A stretch of 64,000 nt of DNA from Paracidovorax cattleyae. GTDB lineage: Bacteria; Pseudomonadota; Gammaproteobacteria; Burkholderiales; Burkholderiaceae_C. The notes under the pieces are model-generated. The model had not been told where the DNA came from. It saw only the letters and a list, made by a program, of their open reading frames with translations, and did not search any database. Shown one piece after another: positions 20,377 to 24,643 of the stretch; position 1 is the first letter of the stretch, and each line of letters begins with the position of its first letter. The position numbers and the translations under genes were made by a program. The stretch spans positions 124,001-188,000 of the forward strand of contig NZ_FNJL01000008.1 of NCBI RefSeq assembly GCF_900104515.1. Direction: 5' to 3'.

Positions 20377-22350
20377 ATGCATGAGCAGGAGGGGGGCGTC
20401 CCCCGCAACGCTCCCGGGAGAATGGCAGGCTGGTGGGTACCCGCCGCCCTGCTTTTGTACGCTGCCGCCGGGCTGGCCTGGGTGGCCGGCGCGGAGGCGC
20501 TTTTGCCGGCCGGCAGCGCGCTGCGTGCGGCGCTGCAGGCGGCCTTCGTGCTGGCGCCGGCGGGCTGCGGCGTATGGGCGCTGCGGCGCTGGCGCGCGCG
20601 CGGCCGGGAGATCGCGGTGCTGGCCCGTGGCGCCGTGCAGGCCGACGAGCGCCAGCGGCTCGCGGCCACGGTGGTGGACAACGCGGCCGAGGGCATGGTG
20701 GTGACCGATGCCGAGAGCCGCATCCTGTCGGTGAATGCGGCCTTCACGCGGCTCATGGGCTACGGAGAGGCGGAACTGCTGGGCCGCACGCCGCGGCTGT
20801 TCAAGTCGGGCCGCCACGGCCGGGCGTTCTACGAGGCCATGTGGGAGGAGCTGGGCCGCACCGGGCACTGGCAGGGCGAGATCTGGAACCGCCGCAAGAA
20901 CGGCGAAGTGTTCCCCGAGCGCATGTCGCTCTCCAGCGTGCGCAATGCGCGCGGCGAGGTGACGCACTACGTGTGCCTGTTCACCGACATTTCCCAGGAG
21001 CACGAGCAGCGGCGCCGGCTGGAGGTCATGGCCCACACCGACCCGCTCACCGGCCTGCCCAACCGCACGTTCTTCGCGCAGCAGCTCGAGGAGGCGATGG
21101 CGGACGCGCGCGCCCGCGGCGAGCCCCTGGCGGTGCTGCTGGTCAACCTGGACCGCTTCAAGGATGTGAACGACAGCTACGGCCATGCGGTGGGCGACCA
21201 GGTGCTGCGCCACATCGCCGCCCGCGTGCAGGCTGCGCTGCGGCCGGGCGACCTCGCGGGGCGGCTGGCGGGCGACGAGATCGGCGTGATCGCCCGCCGG
21301 GTGGATGGCGCGCAGGGCGCGGTGGGGGCCGCCCGCGCCCTGCTGGCGGCGCTGGCCGAGCCCTGGCGCTCGCCCGACGGCTTCGAGGTGGTGGCCTCGG
21401 CCAGCGTGGGCATCTGCCTGTTCCCGGACCATGGCGACACCGCCGATACGCTGCTGCAGGGCGCCCATGCGGCGGTGTACGGCGCGCGCGAGCACGGGCA
21501 GGGCGCCTGGCATTTCTTCGACGAGAGTCTCACCCAGGCCGCGCGCGAGCGGCTCGCCCTGGAGGCGCGGCTGCGCTCGGTGCTGGCCCAGGGGCACCTG
21601 CAGCTGCACTACCAGCCGCAGGTGGACATCGCCTCCGGGTGCATCGTGGGCGCGGAGGCGCTGGTGCGCTGGATCGACCCGGTGGAGGGCCCCATCGCGC
21701 CCGACCGCTTCATCCCGGTGGCCGAGCGCACGGGCATGATCGGCCCGCTGGGCGTCTGGGTGATGCAGGAGGCCTGCCGCCAGGCCCAGGGCTGGCGCGA
21801 GGCCGGGTTGCCCGAGGTGACGATGGCGGTGAACGTCTCCCCGCGCCAGTTCCACCTGACCGACCTGGCCGGCTGCGCGGCCCTCGCGCTGGCGGATTCC
21901 GGCCTGCCGTCCACGCTGCTGGAGCTGGAGCTCACGGAGGGCGCGCTGGCGGAGCGCCCCGAGGAGGCGCGGCAGGTGCTGCTGCGGCTGCGCGGCCTGG
22001 GCCTGCGGCTGGCGATCGATGATTTCGGCACGGGCTACTCGTCGCTGGCGCACCTCAAGCGCTTCCCGATCGATGTGCTGAAGATCGACAAGGGGTTCAT
22101 CCGCGACCTGCCGCAGAGCGCTGATGATACGGCGATCTGCGCGGCCATCATTGCCATGGGGCACAGCCTGGGCCTGGCAGTGCTGGCCGAGGGCGTGGAG
22201 ACGCCGGAGCAGCTGGCGTTCCTGCGCAGCCTGGGCTGCGACCGCTACCAGGGCTACCTGTGCCGCCGGCCGGTGCCCGCGGCGGAGTTCGCCGCGCTGC
22301 TGGCGCAGCAGGCCGCGGGAGTTGACGCGCCTTGGCCGGCCCGGCAATAA
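20377..22350 (+). CDS. PAS-GGDEF-EAL cyclic-di-GMP signalling protein
   Basis: A 657-residue protein with two N-terminal membrane helices (residues about 15-35 and 45-63), a PAS domain (about 95-210, AAEGMVVTDAESRILSVNAAF), a GGDEF domain (about 220-385) and an EAL domain (about 395-650). The cyclase signature is degenerate: RLAGDEIGVI replaces GGDEF, so synthesis is doubtful and the domain may bind GTP allosterically. The EAL domain keeps EALVRW, the DDFGTGYSSL loop and the later catalytic KIDKGFI and ETPEQL motifs, so phosphodiesterase activity is likely. ATG 20377 has AAGGA only 4 bases upstream; ATG 20422 is an alternative start. Confidence 0.9.
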   Translation: MHEQEGGVPRNAPGRMAGWWVPAALLLYAAAGLAWVAGAEALLPAGSALRAALQAAFVLAPAGCGVWALRRWRARGREIAVLARGAVQADERQRLAATVVDNAAEGMVVTDAESRILSVNAAFTRLMGYGEAELLGRTPRLFKSGRHGRAFYEAMWEELGRTGHWQGEIWNRRKNGEVFPERMSLSSVRNARGEVTHYVCLFTDISQEHEQRRRLEVMAHTDPLTGLPNRTFFAQQLEEAMADARARGEPLAVLLVNLDRFKDVNDSYGHAVGDQVLRHIAARVQAALRPGDLAGRLAGDEIGVIARRVDGAQGAVGAARALLAALAEPWRSPDGFEVVASASVGICLFPDHGDTADTLLQGAHAAVYGAREHGQGAWHFFDESLTQAARERLALEARLRSVLAQGHLQLHYQPQVDIASGCIVGAEALVRWIDPVEGPIAPDRFIPVAERTGMIGPLGVWVMQEACRQAQGWREAGLPEVTMAVNVSPRQFHLTDLAGCAALALADSGLPSTLLELELTEGALAERPEEARQVLLRLRGLGLRLAIDDFGTGYSSLAHLKRFPIDVLKIDKGFIRDLPQSADDTAICAAIIAMGHSLGLAVLAEGVETPEQLAFLRSLGCDRYQGYLCRRPVPAAEFAALLAQQAAGVDAPWPARQ

Positions 22351-22470
22351 TCCGCCCGCTTTTTCCGCGGGCCGCCCGGCCTGCAGCCTTCCGGCTACCT
22401 CTGCCGGCTTCTTCCCGCGCCCCCGCGCGCGGGCCCATCCACCGGAGCGCGTGAGCGCGGAGAGAACGCC

Positions 22471-22602
22471 ATGGACCCCTACCCTAGACGGCCTTCCTCC
22501 GCCATGCCCCCGGTGTGCCCGATGGCCGCCCCTGCAACTCGCATTTCCCTTGCCGCATCCGGCGCGCGCCCGGACGCCGCCTGCCGTCCGCCCTGCCGTT
22601 GA
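22471..22602 (+). CDS. Proline-rich 43-residue leader ORF upstream of the MgtC operon
   Basis: A short ORF not found by length-filtered gene callers. It starts at ATG 22471 behind a good ribosome-binding site (GGAGAG, 22459-22464) and encodes MDPYPRRPSSAMPPVCP and a further 26 residues, with ten prolines in total. The N-terminus (acidic residue, then Pro at every second position, then Arg-Arg) closely resembles E. coli/Salmonella MgtL (MEPDPTPLPRRR), the leader whose translation destabilises ribosomes at low Mg2+ and so derepresses mgtA. It lies 43 bases upstream of a small MgtE_N-like gene and the MgtC-family gene. The role as a magnesium-sensing leader peptide is inferred from position and sequence pattern. 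Confidence 0.6.
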   Translation: MDPYPRRPSSAMPPVCPMAAPATRISLAASGARPDAACRPPCR

Positions 22603-22645
22603 CGGCACGGAGGCTCCCCGCGCGGCTGGCGCGGATGGAGCCCCC

Positions 22646-23017
22646 ATGTTCTTCTTCCGTTCTTTTCTTCCTGCTTCTTTCCAGAGGGACGAGCTGGTCG
22701 CACTGGTGCTGCGCGACGCGCTCGCCCGCCGCCGCCCGCAGGCACTGTGCGGCCTGCTGCAGAGCCACGGACGCGGCGCCGTGGCGGCGTGCCTGTCCCG
22801 GGAGCCGGGCGCGGTGATCGCCGATGCGCTGTCCATGCTGCCCGCGGACCAGCGCCGTGCGGTCTTCCAGCGCCTGAGCCGGCCCGCGCGCGAGCGGGCC
22901 CGGCGCATCGGCGGCCGGGCGTTCGACGCCTTCGGGCCTTCCGTTCCGGCAGGTGCCTGGCGCCGCGCCCGGGCCTGGTGGGTGCGCCGCTGCCGGCGTT
23001 CCGGCGCGCCGGTCTAG
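22646..23017 (+). CDS. Small MgtE N-domain-like protein upstream of mgtC
   Basis: A 123-residue protein starting MFFFRSFLPASFQRDELVAL behind GGAG at 22637-22640. The middle (LCGLLQSHGRGAVAACL, then VIADALSMLPADQRRAVFQR) has the helical-repeat pattern of the MgtE N-terminal intracellular domain, which in full MgtE channels closes the pore when Mg2+ is high. Here there is no CBS pair and no transmembrane part; the C-terminus is Arg/Trp-rich. It could act as a cytosolic Mg2+ sensor or modulator of the neighbouring MgtC protein. The match is weak, so the domain call is tentative. Confidence 0.55.
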   Translation: MFFFRSFLPASFQRDELVALVLRDALARRRPQALCGLLQSHGRGAVAACLSREPGAVIADALSMLPADQRRAVFQRLSRPARERARRIGGRAFDAFGPSVPAGAWRRARAWWVRRCRRSGAPV

Positions 23018-23098
23018 CGCGGCCCCGCGGCCATTCACCAGCCCGTTCCCAGTCGTCTTCCGCCCCCTGCCCGTCAGGCCACGCACCCGGACCGCACC

Positions 23099-23815
23099 AT
23101 GCAATTTCTTCGCCACTTCCACCTGTTTCCCTTCCTCGACACCCTGGTCAGCCTGCTCACCGCCTTCGGGCTGGGCGCGGCGATCGGGCTGGAGCGGCAG
23201 ATCCGCCAGCGGACCGCGGGGCTGCGCACCAATACGCTCGTGGCCGTGGGCGCGGCGGCTTTCGTGGTGCTGGCCGACCGGCTCGAGGGGCCGTCCGGCG
23301 CGGTGCGGGTGATTGCCTACGTGGTGTCGGGCGTGGGCTTCCTGGGCGCGGGGGCGATCATGAAGGAGGGCGCGAACATCACCGGGCTCAATACGGCGGC
23401 GACGCTCTGGGGCTCCGCGGCGGTGGGCGCCTGCGCGGGCTCGCACCTGGTGGCCGAGGCGGTGCTGGCCGCGCTGTTCGTGCTGGCGAGCAATACGCTG
23501 CTGCGCCCCGTGGCCAACCGCATCAACCGGCGTCCGGTGCAGGAAGCCACCAGCGAGGCCATCTATACCGTCTATGTGCTGTGCGAGCGCGGCGTCCACG
23601 GCGAGGTGCGCGAGCGCATGGTGGAGTTGCTGGAGGGCGCGAACTACCCGGTGCGCGGCGTGGGCCAGCATGCCTTCGGGCGCACGGAAACCGAGATCGA
23701 GGCCACGCTCTACGCGACGGCGGTGGAGGCCGACGAACTGGATGCCGTGATGCGCGCGATCGAGGAACTGCCGGGGGTGCTGCAGGCGTTCTGGAACGCC
23801 GGTTCGGAGGAATAG
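23099..23815 (+). CDS. mgtC: MgtC/SapB-family membrane protein
   Basis: A 238-residue protein of the MgtC/SapB family. Four to five membrane helices occupy residues about 10-140, with the signature LGAAIGLERQIRQRTAGLRTN, VSGVGFLGAGAIMKEG and GLNTAATLWGSAAVGA. A soluble C-terminal domain of about 85 residues (ACT-like) follows. MgtC proteins act in growth at low Mg2+ and, in Salmonella, inhibit the F1Fo ATP synthase and promote survival in host cells. It is the third cistron behind the proline-rich leader ORF and ends 3 bases from the convergent ChaN-like gene. Confidence 0.9.
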   Translation: MQFLRHFHLFPFLDTLVSLLTAFGLGAAIGLERQIRQRTAGLRTNTLVAVGAAAFVVLADRLEGPSGAVRVIAYVVSGVGFLGAGAIMKEGANITGLNTAATLWGSAAVGACAGSHLVAEAVLAALFVLASNTLLRPVANRINRRPVQEATSEAIYTVYVLCERGVHGEVRERMVELLEGANYPVRGVGQHAFGRTETEIEATLYATAVEADELDAVMRAIEELPGVLQAFWNAGSEE

Positions 23816-23818
23816 GCC

Positions 23819-24643
23819 TTATCGCCTGATTGCGGCGCAATGGTCCGTGGGCGGCAGGGCAGGAGTAGGCAGGACCGTGTCGGCGGCGCCTCCGGGCAGC
23901 GGATCGGTGGCGGATTGCGCCCGTGCGATCGCGACGCGGGCCTGCACGCCCGCGTCCCAGTGCAGCGGCACGCCGAGGTCGCGGCGCGCGTGGCCCGCGC
24001 CCGTGACCAGCAGTACCGTCTGCCCGGGCCGTCGCGCGCCGGCCGCCGTCCTCGCCAGGCTGTCGTCCCGCGCGATCTGGATGCGGGCCATGCCGGGCAG
24101 CTGCGACGCAGGCAGCAGGCCACAGTGGCCGGCCTCCATGGCTTCGACCTGCCGGCGCAGTACGGGGGCCGGCACACGGGGATCCCAGGCCGCATCCTGC
24201 ATGGCCTCGCGCATGCGCGCGCGGGGCAGGTTGCCGCCGAGCACCGGCACGCCGGCATGCACGGCTTCCATCACCACCGGGCCGTAATGCGTCCAGGGCC
24301 AGGCCGCATCGTTCCATGCGAGCGCTTCGCGCACGGCGGATTCGGCGGCATCGCGCGGCAGGCCGGCCGTACCGTGGCCGGCCTCGGCCATCTCCACCAC
24401 CAGCGCCGCCAGCTGCCCGCGGACTGCCAGCGAGGCGACGGCCTCGCGTTCCAGCCGCTGGTGTTCGGGCGCGTCGTGCTGCTCGCCCAGGAGCAGGATC
24501 TCGGTGGGCAGCAGCGCCTGCCAGGGGTCGCCGCCGGACGGGGCTGCAGGCGGCACGGTGCTGGCGCACGCCGCGGCCAGGGCCAGCAGGGCCAGGGAGG
24601 CGGCGCGTTCCGCGGAGCGCCGCATGCGGATGGACAGATGCAT
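23819..24643 (-). CDS. ChaN-family haem-binding lipoprotein
   Basis: A 274-residue protein of the ChaN/Tiki-like family, linked to iron (haem) uptake in Campylobacter. A signal sequence ends in a lipobox (LALAAACAS, Cys near residue 27). The family core is visible: EILLLGEQHDAPEHQRLEREAV, LAALVVEMAE and the C-terminal GAGHARRDLGVPLHW. The ATG at 24643 is preferred over upstream candidates because it has AAGGTG in front and places the signal peptide correctly. The FNR-type box at 24693-24706 lies between this gene and narX and could also influence it, though its spacing to a -10 element fits the narX direction better. Confidence 0.85.
   Translation of the reverse strand: MHLSIRMRRSAERAASLALLALAAACASTVPPAAPSGGDPWQALLPTEILLLGEQHDAPEHQRLEREAVASLAVRGQLAALVVEMAEAGHGTAGLPRDAAESAVREALAWNDAAWPWTHYGPVVMEAVHAGVPVLGGNLPRARMREAMQDAAWDPRVPAPVLRRQVEAMEAGHCGLLPASQLPGMARIQIARDDSLARTAAGARRPGQTVLLVTGAGHARRDLGVPLHWDAGVQARVAIARAQSATDPLPGGAADTVLPTPALPPTDHCAAIRR

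Follow-up and report, generated by a model that had tools for sequence, protein, structure and literature searches.

The short ORF at positions 22471-22602 (+) of the analysed window, the 64,000-nucleotide stretch of Paracidovorax cattleyae contig NZ_FNJL01000008.1 studied here, is probably a cis-acting regulatory leader of a Mg2+-transport operon that would function as an MgtL-like ribosome drop-off switch with a translational output and would belong to a family-wide set. The probability given to this reading is roughly 0.6. Comparison of the leaders supports the peptide start, the association with Mg2+-transport genes and the hairpin masking the next Shine-Dalgarno (SD) sequence, and suggests a shared ribosome-based magnesium switch ahead of several different magnesium-transport operons in one bacterial family. 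The mechanism that we infer covers the drop-off, Mg2+ as its signal, an exchange between two pairings and the direction of the response. Ribosomes would initiate on the leader and at codons 2-5 meet Asp-Pro-x-Pro (mostly Asp-Pro-Asp-Pro), an MgtL-like start that destabilises the ribosome. When Mg2+ is sufficient, ribosomes would reach the leader stop and occupy the last codons (segment A), while segment B pairs with segment C, shutting the SD of the next gene and turning its translation off. At low Mg2+, drop-off at the Asp-Pro start would leave segment A free to pair with segment B; this would expose the SD of a small MgtE_N-like gene and with it open the operon.

The leader ORF encodes 43 amino acids (MDPYPRRPSSAMPPVCPMAAPATRISLAASGARPDAACRPPCR) and begins MDPYPRRPSSAMPPV (MDPYP). 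It is an SD-equipped short ORF in the 5' region of a Mg2+-transport operon, and its SD and spacer occupy 22459-22470 (+), with GGAG at 22459-22462, 8 nt 5' of the ATG. One of the 15 positions in the stretch 22456-22470 is variable across five near-identical genomes. A hairpin (B:C) is predicted 3' of the leader stop at 22609-22645 (+), and its 3' arm contains the SD of the next ORF (GGAG, 22637-22640). The anti-SD arm B is also predicted to pair with segment A at the 3' end of the leader ORF (22563-22591, +). The next gene (22646-23017, +) encodes a putative MgtE_N/FliG_M-like helical protein of 123 aa, and behind it lies an mgtC-family gene (23099-23815, +) whose 238 aa product matches PF02308 (E=1.5e-34), with the MgtC and MgtC_SapB_C domains both above cut-off. 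The preliminary description of this DNA had reported a 43-codon ORF with a ribosome-binding site before a small protein gene and mgtC, and all of these parts are present. A PAS-GGDEF-EAL gene lies upstream and a ChaN-like gene lies downstream on the opposite strand. A candidate sigma-70-like promoter, TTGACG-18-AATAAT, was identified by pattern scan at 22322-22351 (+). It is the single promoter-like site in 21500-24500, compared to a mean of 0.1 in shuffles, and its counterparts, TTGAC[G/T]-18-xATAAT, precede the leader in four near relatives and in genome G002. Rfam covariance models, Mg2+ riboswitches included, gave no match at gathering score in the window, and no terminator-like site was identified in 21500-24500 by a scan for intrinsic terminators, which says nothing on Rho.

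The leader of four near relatives (G008, G009, G013 and G015) also has 43 codons and starts MDPYPRRPS. Across these four genomes and the window, leader codons 1-7 and 24-41 are invariant, the latter block (54 nt, 22540-22593) holding nearly all of segment A, while 12 of 48 positions in codons 8-23 and 62 of 238 third positions in mgtC are variable. The leader of G002, MDPAPIRPSPGLPPV, which is the same in an uncultured Acidovorax (L040), starts MDPAP and uses the synonymous codons CCT/CCC for Pro3/Pro5 in place of the CCC/CCT of the window. The Asp-Pro-x-Pro start is conserved with codon drift, which supports the preliminary description on this point. The pattern GGAG-N4-9-RTG-Asp-Pro-x-Pro occurs once in the organism's own genome, at the window leader, and 13 times in the genus, in 8 of 17 genomes. 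In seven of these 13, the site belongs to a leader of the small MgtE_N-like gene, and mgtC follows that gene in six. A leader starting MDPDPCMRPGG is also found ahead of the small protein in G014 (locus L082), where a histidine kinase and a response regulator follow in place of mgtC or any transporter.

A profile of the small protein matched at least 22 of 299 family genomes, and 17 matches were accepted, 15 of them outside the genus; the profile searches scored at most 14 and at most 11 candidates per genome, so these counts are lower bounds. Profile matches at L059-L064, L065 and L066 were judged unrelated and dropped. In a separate scan for the small protein, which may leave out near genomes, Paracidovorax oryzae (Comamonadaceae) is the closest of three named genomes among the matches listed. 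Together with Alcaligenes faecalis L041, which belongs to another family, the profile loci give 16 loci outside the genus, of which 11 have a leader of the kind M-D/G-P/S-x-P. The start is MDPDP in seven (L044, L045, L049, L050, L056, L057, L058), MDPVP in two (L054, L055), MDSDP in L053, seen only in a second search with a looser pattern, and a TTG-started MGPDP in L041, identified by eye. The small protein is present with no such leader in the other five (L046, L047, L048, L051, L052). Based on a reading of translations, with examples confirmed by HMM, the genes behind the small protein encode MgtC, MgtA then MgtC, MgtE then MgtC, CorA (L041) or an RND pair (L068, L076). The small-protein frame is broken in L046, and no such transporter is seen behind it.

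A search of the same 299 family genomes for SD-spaced RTG-Asp-Pro-Asp-Pro found 23 sites in 21 genomes, and at 19 of the 23 the reading frame that starts there spans 19-57 codons and is followed on its own strand by a metal-transport gene. The transporter is MgtA at eight of these sites, MgtE at five, a CzcA-type RND protein at three, NRAMP at two and MgtC at one. It is backed by an HMM match at 16 sites and by tblastn alone at three (L086, L088, L095); transporter fragments ending at a locus edge score below curated cut-offs. The other four sites (L091, L094, L097, L106) look like chance. A permuted MPDPD control gave three sites in 140 genomes, none of them near such transport genes. The pattern read backward gave 21 sites in the 299 genomes against 23; the enrichment therefore lies in the gene context and not in the site count. 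The link between the leader and Mg2+ genes put forward in the preliminary description extends to Mg2+-transport operons across the family.

The choice of mgtC as the output gene fared less well. In a survey centred on MgtC, matches were found in 96 of 150 genomes, and the 85 that scored from about 91 bits upward were used. A short ORF starting M[D/E]PxP lies up to 1.5 kb upstream of four of these 85 genes, one of them (L079) inside an MgtA gene, leaving 3/85 in a survey blind to leaders more than 1.5 kb away. The antisense control gave 2/85, one of which (L138) is the true leader of an adjacent MgtE operon, and a looser leader pattern gave 5/85 in sense and none in antisense. MgtC is therefore not the typical output, and the MgtA, MgtE, NRAMP and RND operons also have the leader. 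Beyond the family, SD-spaced MDPDP occurred in 4 of 250 genomes of the order, one being the family genome G273; the sites outside the family (L107-L109) have no downstream Mg2+ gene. The pattern M[D/E]P[D/E]P gave 2 of 185 in the class, both unrelated, and the order and class patterns would miss TTG-started leaders such as that of Alcaligenes. L108, which comes from a different family of the order, has an MDPDP short ORF located after a same-strand NRAMP gene and before a porin-like reading frame.

Across the 28 leaders collected, which are 16-57 codons long, proline is found at codon 3 in 27 and at codon 5 in all 28. Asp occupies codon 2 in 27, the exception being Alcaligenes with Gly. Among the 14 leaders that came from the small protein, the window included, 10 have Asp at codon 4; the other 14 were selected for Asp at codons 2 and 4. 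The Pro5 codon is CCT in 15 leaders, CCC in six, CCG in six and CCA in one, and the peptide past the first residues differs from genus to genus. Leader codon 6 is AGT in 10 of 28, AGA in two (22486-22488 in the window, and L085) and ATA in one (G002), all of which are codons expected to be rare in such G+C-rich genomes.

Several further observations concern the genes around these leaders. CzcA/CusA-type RND genes are headed by a leader in L087 and L104 and lie behind the small protein in L068 and L076; an RND gene follows mgtC with no such leader in L075, and an MgtC gene is also present upstream of the leader in L104. The NRAMP protein of L093, read from its translation, carries Thr-x-x-Ala-Pro in helix 6. 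In this it is like the NRAMP-related Mg2+ transporters that have Ala in place of the conserved Met in the helix 6 motif, as given in the available part of PMC8806188. Between the leader and the NRAMP gene, L089 and L093 contain short ORFs (44-45 codons) whose ends are alike (AY..LVD...GR); these ORFs start 37-42 nt past the leader stop and own the masked SD. A protein of approximately 230-260 aa with a DDAAILxPGQCQxETW-like motif lies between the MDPDP leader and MgtA/MgtE in L092 (1649-2329), L085, L096, L102 and L103; the L092 protein, the one scanned by HMM, gave no match above cut-off. A second conserved small ORF, ending in ELDxxTxWPTHRIRSFLxxQ or similar, is found at L071 (6326-6622), and similar ORFs are found in L072, L074 and L077-L081. 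It lies a few hundred nt ahead of the small MgtE_N-like gene, and the L071 copy, the one scanned, has no Pfam or NCBIfam match.

The region from leader stop to next start was folded for all 28 leaders, and L098 and L104, which show no clear masking hairpin, were omitted, leaving 26 loci. The starts of L050 and L058 were shifted to upstream in-frame ATGs, and for L084, L089 and L093 a short ORF supplied the start, in both cases after the hairpin had been seen; the 26 loci are not all independent, near pairs including L049/L050, L054/L055, L056/L058 and L102/L103. With these choices, the distance from leader stop to next start is 37-60 nt in 25 of 26 loci (70 in L044), and the arm pairing with the SD region starts 7-19 nt past the leader stop in 25 of 26 (54 in L044). 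The mean folding z is -2.27 against mononucleotide shuffles, and 20 of 26 loci fall below -1. All four bases of the SD core are paired in 19 loci and at least three-quarters of them in 23, while two at most are paired in L045, L096 and L101. The pairs flanking the core vary by locus (G-C, U-A, A-U, C-G); at the first position past it there are 10 G-C, six U-A, two G-U and one A-U pair, with seven loci unpaired. In the window, the RNA of 22603-22646 folds into a hairpin that masks the SD. This speaks for translational control, and nothing specific to Rho was found in the segment. Within the five near genomes, the hairpin (22610-22645) is no better conserved than its surroundings, with 10 of 36 positions variable.

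We judge the A:B/B:C switch to be likely, although the controls of the pairing models point both ways. In the window, the predicted pairing energy is -37.1 kcal/mol for the A:B stretch and -27.2 kcal/mol for the B:C stretch, two stretches of unequal length. When the SD arm is removed, the strongest pairing of the masking arm falls within the final 30 nt of the leader at 20 of 26 loci, compared to 23% in dinucleotide shuffles. The mean z of A:B pairing is 0.94 +- 0.25 with dinucleotide shuffles (positive in 19 of 26) and 1.06 +- 0.26 with mononucleotide shuffles; a reversed-arm control is also positive (0.76 +- 0.28), so the signal is partly composition. A ribosome at the leader stop would, on the footprint that we assume, cover segment A and end approximately where the masking arm begins. 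The modelled cost of opening the SD in the window is 5.7 kcal/mol on the naked RNA and 9.2 kcal/mol with a ribosome at the leader stop. At only 11 of 26 loci does such a ribosome add more than 0.5 kcal/mol to the cost, and at some (G002, L093, L101, L102) it lowers the cost somewhat. Relative to shuffled segments, the rise in opening cost has a z of 0.95 +- 0.22. Equilibrium folding of the whole leader gave no consistent gain in SD accessibility without ribosomes, with means of 0.18-0.22 over five states at 24 loci.

The small protein had been labelled MgtE_N-like in the preliminary description, a label backed by weak matches in both sequence and predicted fold. Its best Pfam match is FliG_M at E=0.13, with no MgtE_N match at E <= 1, nor does the 123 aa protein match the MgtE membrane domain or CBS domains. 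Three relatives were scanned, and MgtE_N gave E=0.0015, E=0.15 and no match, all below the Pfam cut-off; the best of these scored 19.5 bits against a cut-off of 25.9. An AF2 model built from four sequences is all-helical (pLDDT 71, pTM 0.58), and Foldseek placed FliG and MgtE cytosolic domains at the top of its matches, at E values of 0.56-0.72, with none at E <= 0.001. The weak MgtE_N match and the Foldseek ranking fit an MgtE_N/FliG_M-like fold, which is plausible but weak by sequence. The protein is comparable to the MgtE N-terminal domain (PF03448) as a small helical protein, one relative of which matches MgtE_N below cut-off; unlike MgtE, it stands alone at approximately 107-157 aa with no CBS or membrane domain. 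A role as a partner that binds Mg2+ for the transporters of the operon is a guess.

The closest published parallel is MgtL, the leader peptide of enterobacterial mgtA, a short ORF that precedes a Mg2+ transporter gene and has acidic-Pro residues at codons 2-5 (PMC11282234, PMC6460261, each consulted in part, as are the other sources in this paragraph). The EPDP start of MgtL causes ribosome drop-off at low Mg2+ (PMC11282234), and translation of the leader selects between alternative stem-loops (PMC11282234, PMC6460261). The present leaders differ in that the SD of the next ORF is masked, 37-60 nt past the leader stop, and in their outputs, which are MgtA, MgtE, MgtC, NRAMP and RND, plus CorA in Alcaligenes. 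The window peptide was first described as a near copy of MgtL, which overstates the likeness: it carries DPYP at codons 2-5, with Tyr at codon 4 where MgtL has its second acidic residue, and its prolines at 3, 5 and 8 depart from the Salmonella mgtL pattern (Pro 3, 5, 7, 9). The likeness is one of pattern. The leader set would work like MgtL by analogy, and membership in the MgtL class is not claimed because the window leader has no second acidic residue. In mgtQ, an 8-codon ORF before Salmonella mgtB, Asp2 and Glu5 destabilise the ribosome and govern a stem-loop that masks the SD (PMC8092293), a coupling of acidic-residue destabilisation to SD masking like that proposed here. mgtQ lies inside its operon after mgtC, whereas the present leaders stand ahead of the first gene, have 16-57 codons and carry Pro at 5 and, in all but one, at 3. 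The Salmonella mgtCBR leader mgtP is similar in that one alternative stem-loop takes an arm from its last four codons and another stem masks the mgtC RBS; it has three consecutive Pro codons and a proline response, and the part of PMC3641672 at hand describes no Asp-Pro start. The CruR (DUF2946) uORF of Bordetella pertussis is also a metal-responsive upstream ORF in a betaproteobacterium, but it senses copper via CXXC, lifts an arrest at the RAPP motif of its C-terminus and has a Rho output, and its peptide is unrelated (PMC9426467).

The same leader and signal could instead have a transcriptional output, in which a Rho-dependent terminator stays open when the leader is translated in full, as described in E. 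coli mgtA, with only a secondary part for the hairpin. The composition of the leaders is consistent with this, as all 28 ORFs are richer in C than in G (C/G 1.10 to 2.64), and the gap ahead of mgtC (23018-23098, +) is C-rich and G-poor, making it a candidate Rho loading site by base composition. The GC skew is -0.32 for 23000-23099 and -0.47 for 23050-23149, a rut-like stretch before and into mgtC. MgtL itself acts via Rho, according to the available part of PMC11282234. The narrow range of distances from leader stop to next start and the SD-masking hairpin with its changing pairs are what translational control needs, and a Rho-based output is considered unlikely, though the most credible of the alternatives. 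Less probable again is a leader that responds to charged tRNA-Pro, or to generally slow decoding of Pro and acidic codons (the state of EF-P or EttA), and not to Mg2+. The L054 leader does start MDPVPPPPP, a polyproline stretch, and mgtL and mgtP are described in the accessible parts of PMC3641672 and PMC6460261 as responding to proline supply and EF-P. Such a sensor is at odds with the retention of Asp at codon 2, in 27 of the 28 leaders, and at codon 4, in 10 of the 14 small-protein leaders, and with downstream genes that are mainly Mg2+ genes.

It would be very surprising if the ORF were no regulator, but a short coding stretch kept through its overlap with RNA signals for the small protein gene. 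The nucleotide-level conservation of segment A in the five near genomes and the divergence of the peptide past its first residues among genera would both fit such an overlap. The Asp-Pro-x-Pro start, by contrast, is retained across genera through different codons, four of them at Pro5, and leaders on unrelated RNAs stand ahead of unrelated Mg2+ genes. The translational, Mg2+-responsive leader is preferred.

A broader proposal, held tentatively and at slightly less than even odds, is that one design, a DPDP peptide followed by an SD-masking hairpin at a nearly fixed distance, serves as the common Mg2+ switch of the family. It would head no fewer than five unrelated gene types (MgtA, MgtE, MgtC, NRAMP and RND), with CorA a sixth in Alcaligenes, and would have arisen or been re-used separately, as the stem sequences and the downstream genes are unrelated. 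The RND pumps and the stand-alone MgtE_N-like protein would then be new parts of Mg2+ homeostasis, two components not usually linked to Mg2+ for which the leader set predicts such roles. If so, the CzcA-type RND pump may act in Mg2+ or polyamine-like balance, and the small protein may be a soluble Mg2+ sensor. Sensing of Mg2+ by nascent-chain destabilisation is already known from enterobacterial mgtL and mgtQ, and the present set combines the DPDP start with SD masking over a narrow range of distances across unrelated genes. Among the titles and abstract openings listed by the literature search, which covered neither bioRxiv nor most subscription papers, none dealt with leaders of this kind in the group. 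Apart from the first five residues and the geometry of the hairpin, the leaders have little in common, which would make a five-residue peptide a portable ion sensor, and the set would give a simple route to Mg2+ genes in genomes. The DPYP variant of the window would be a natural test of the acidity that the sensor needs. Upstream of the leader, L053 and L013 both contain the palindrome TATACCTTGGTATA, which is a candidate regulator site.
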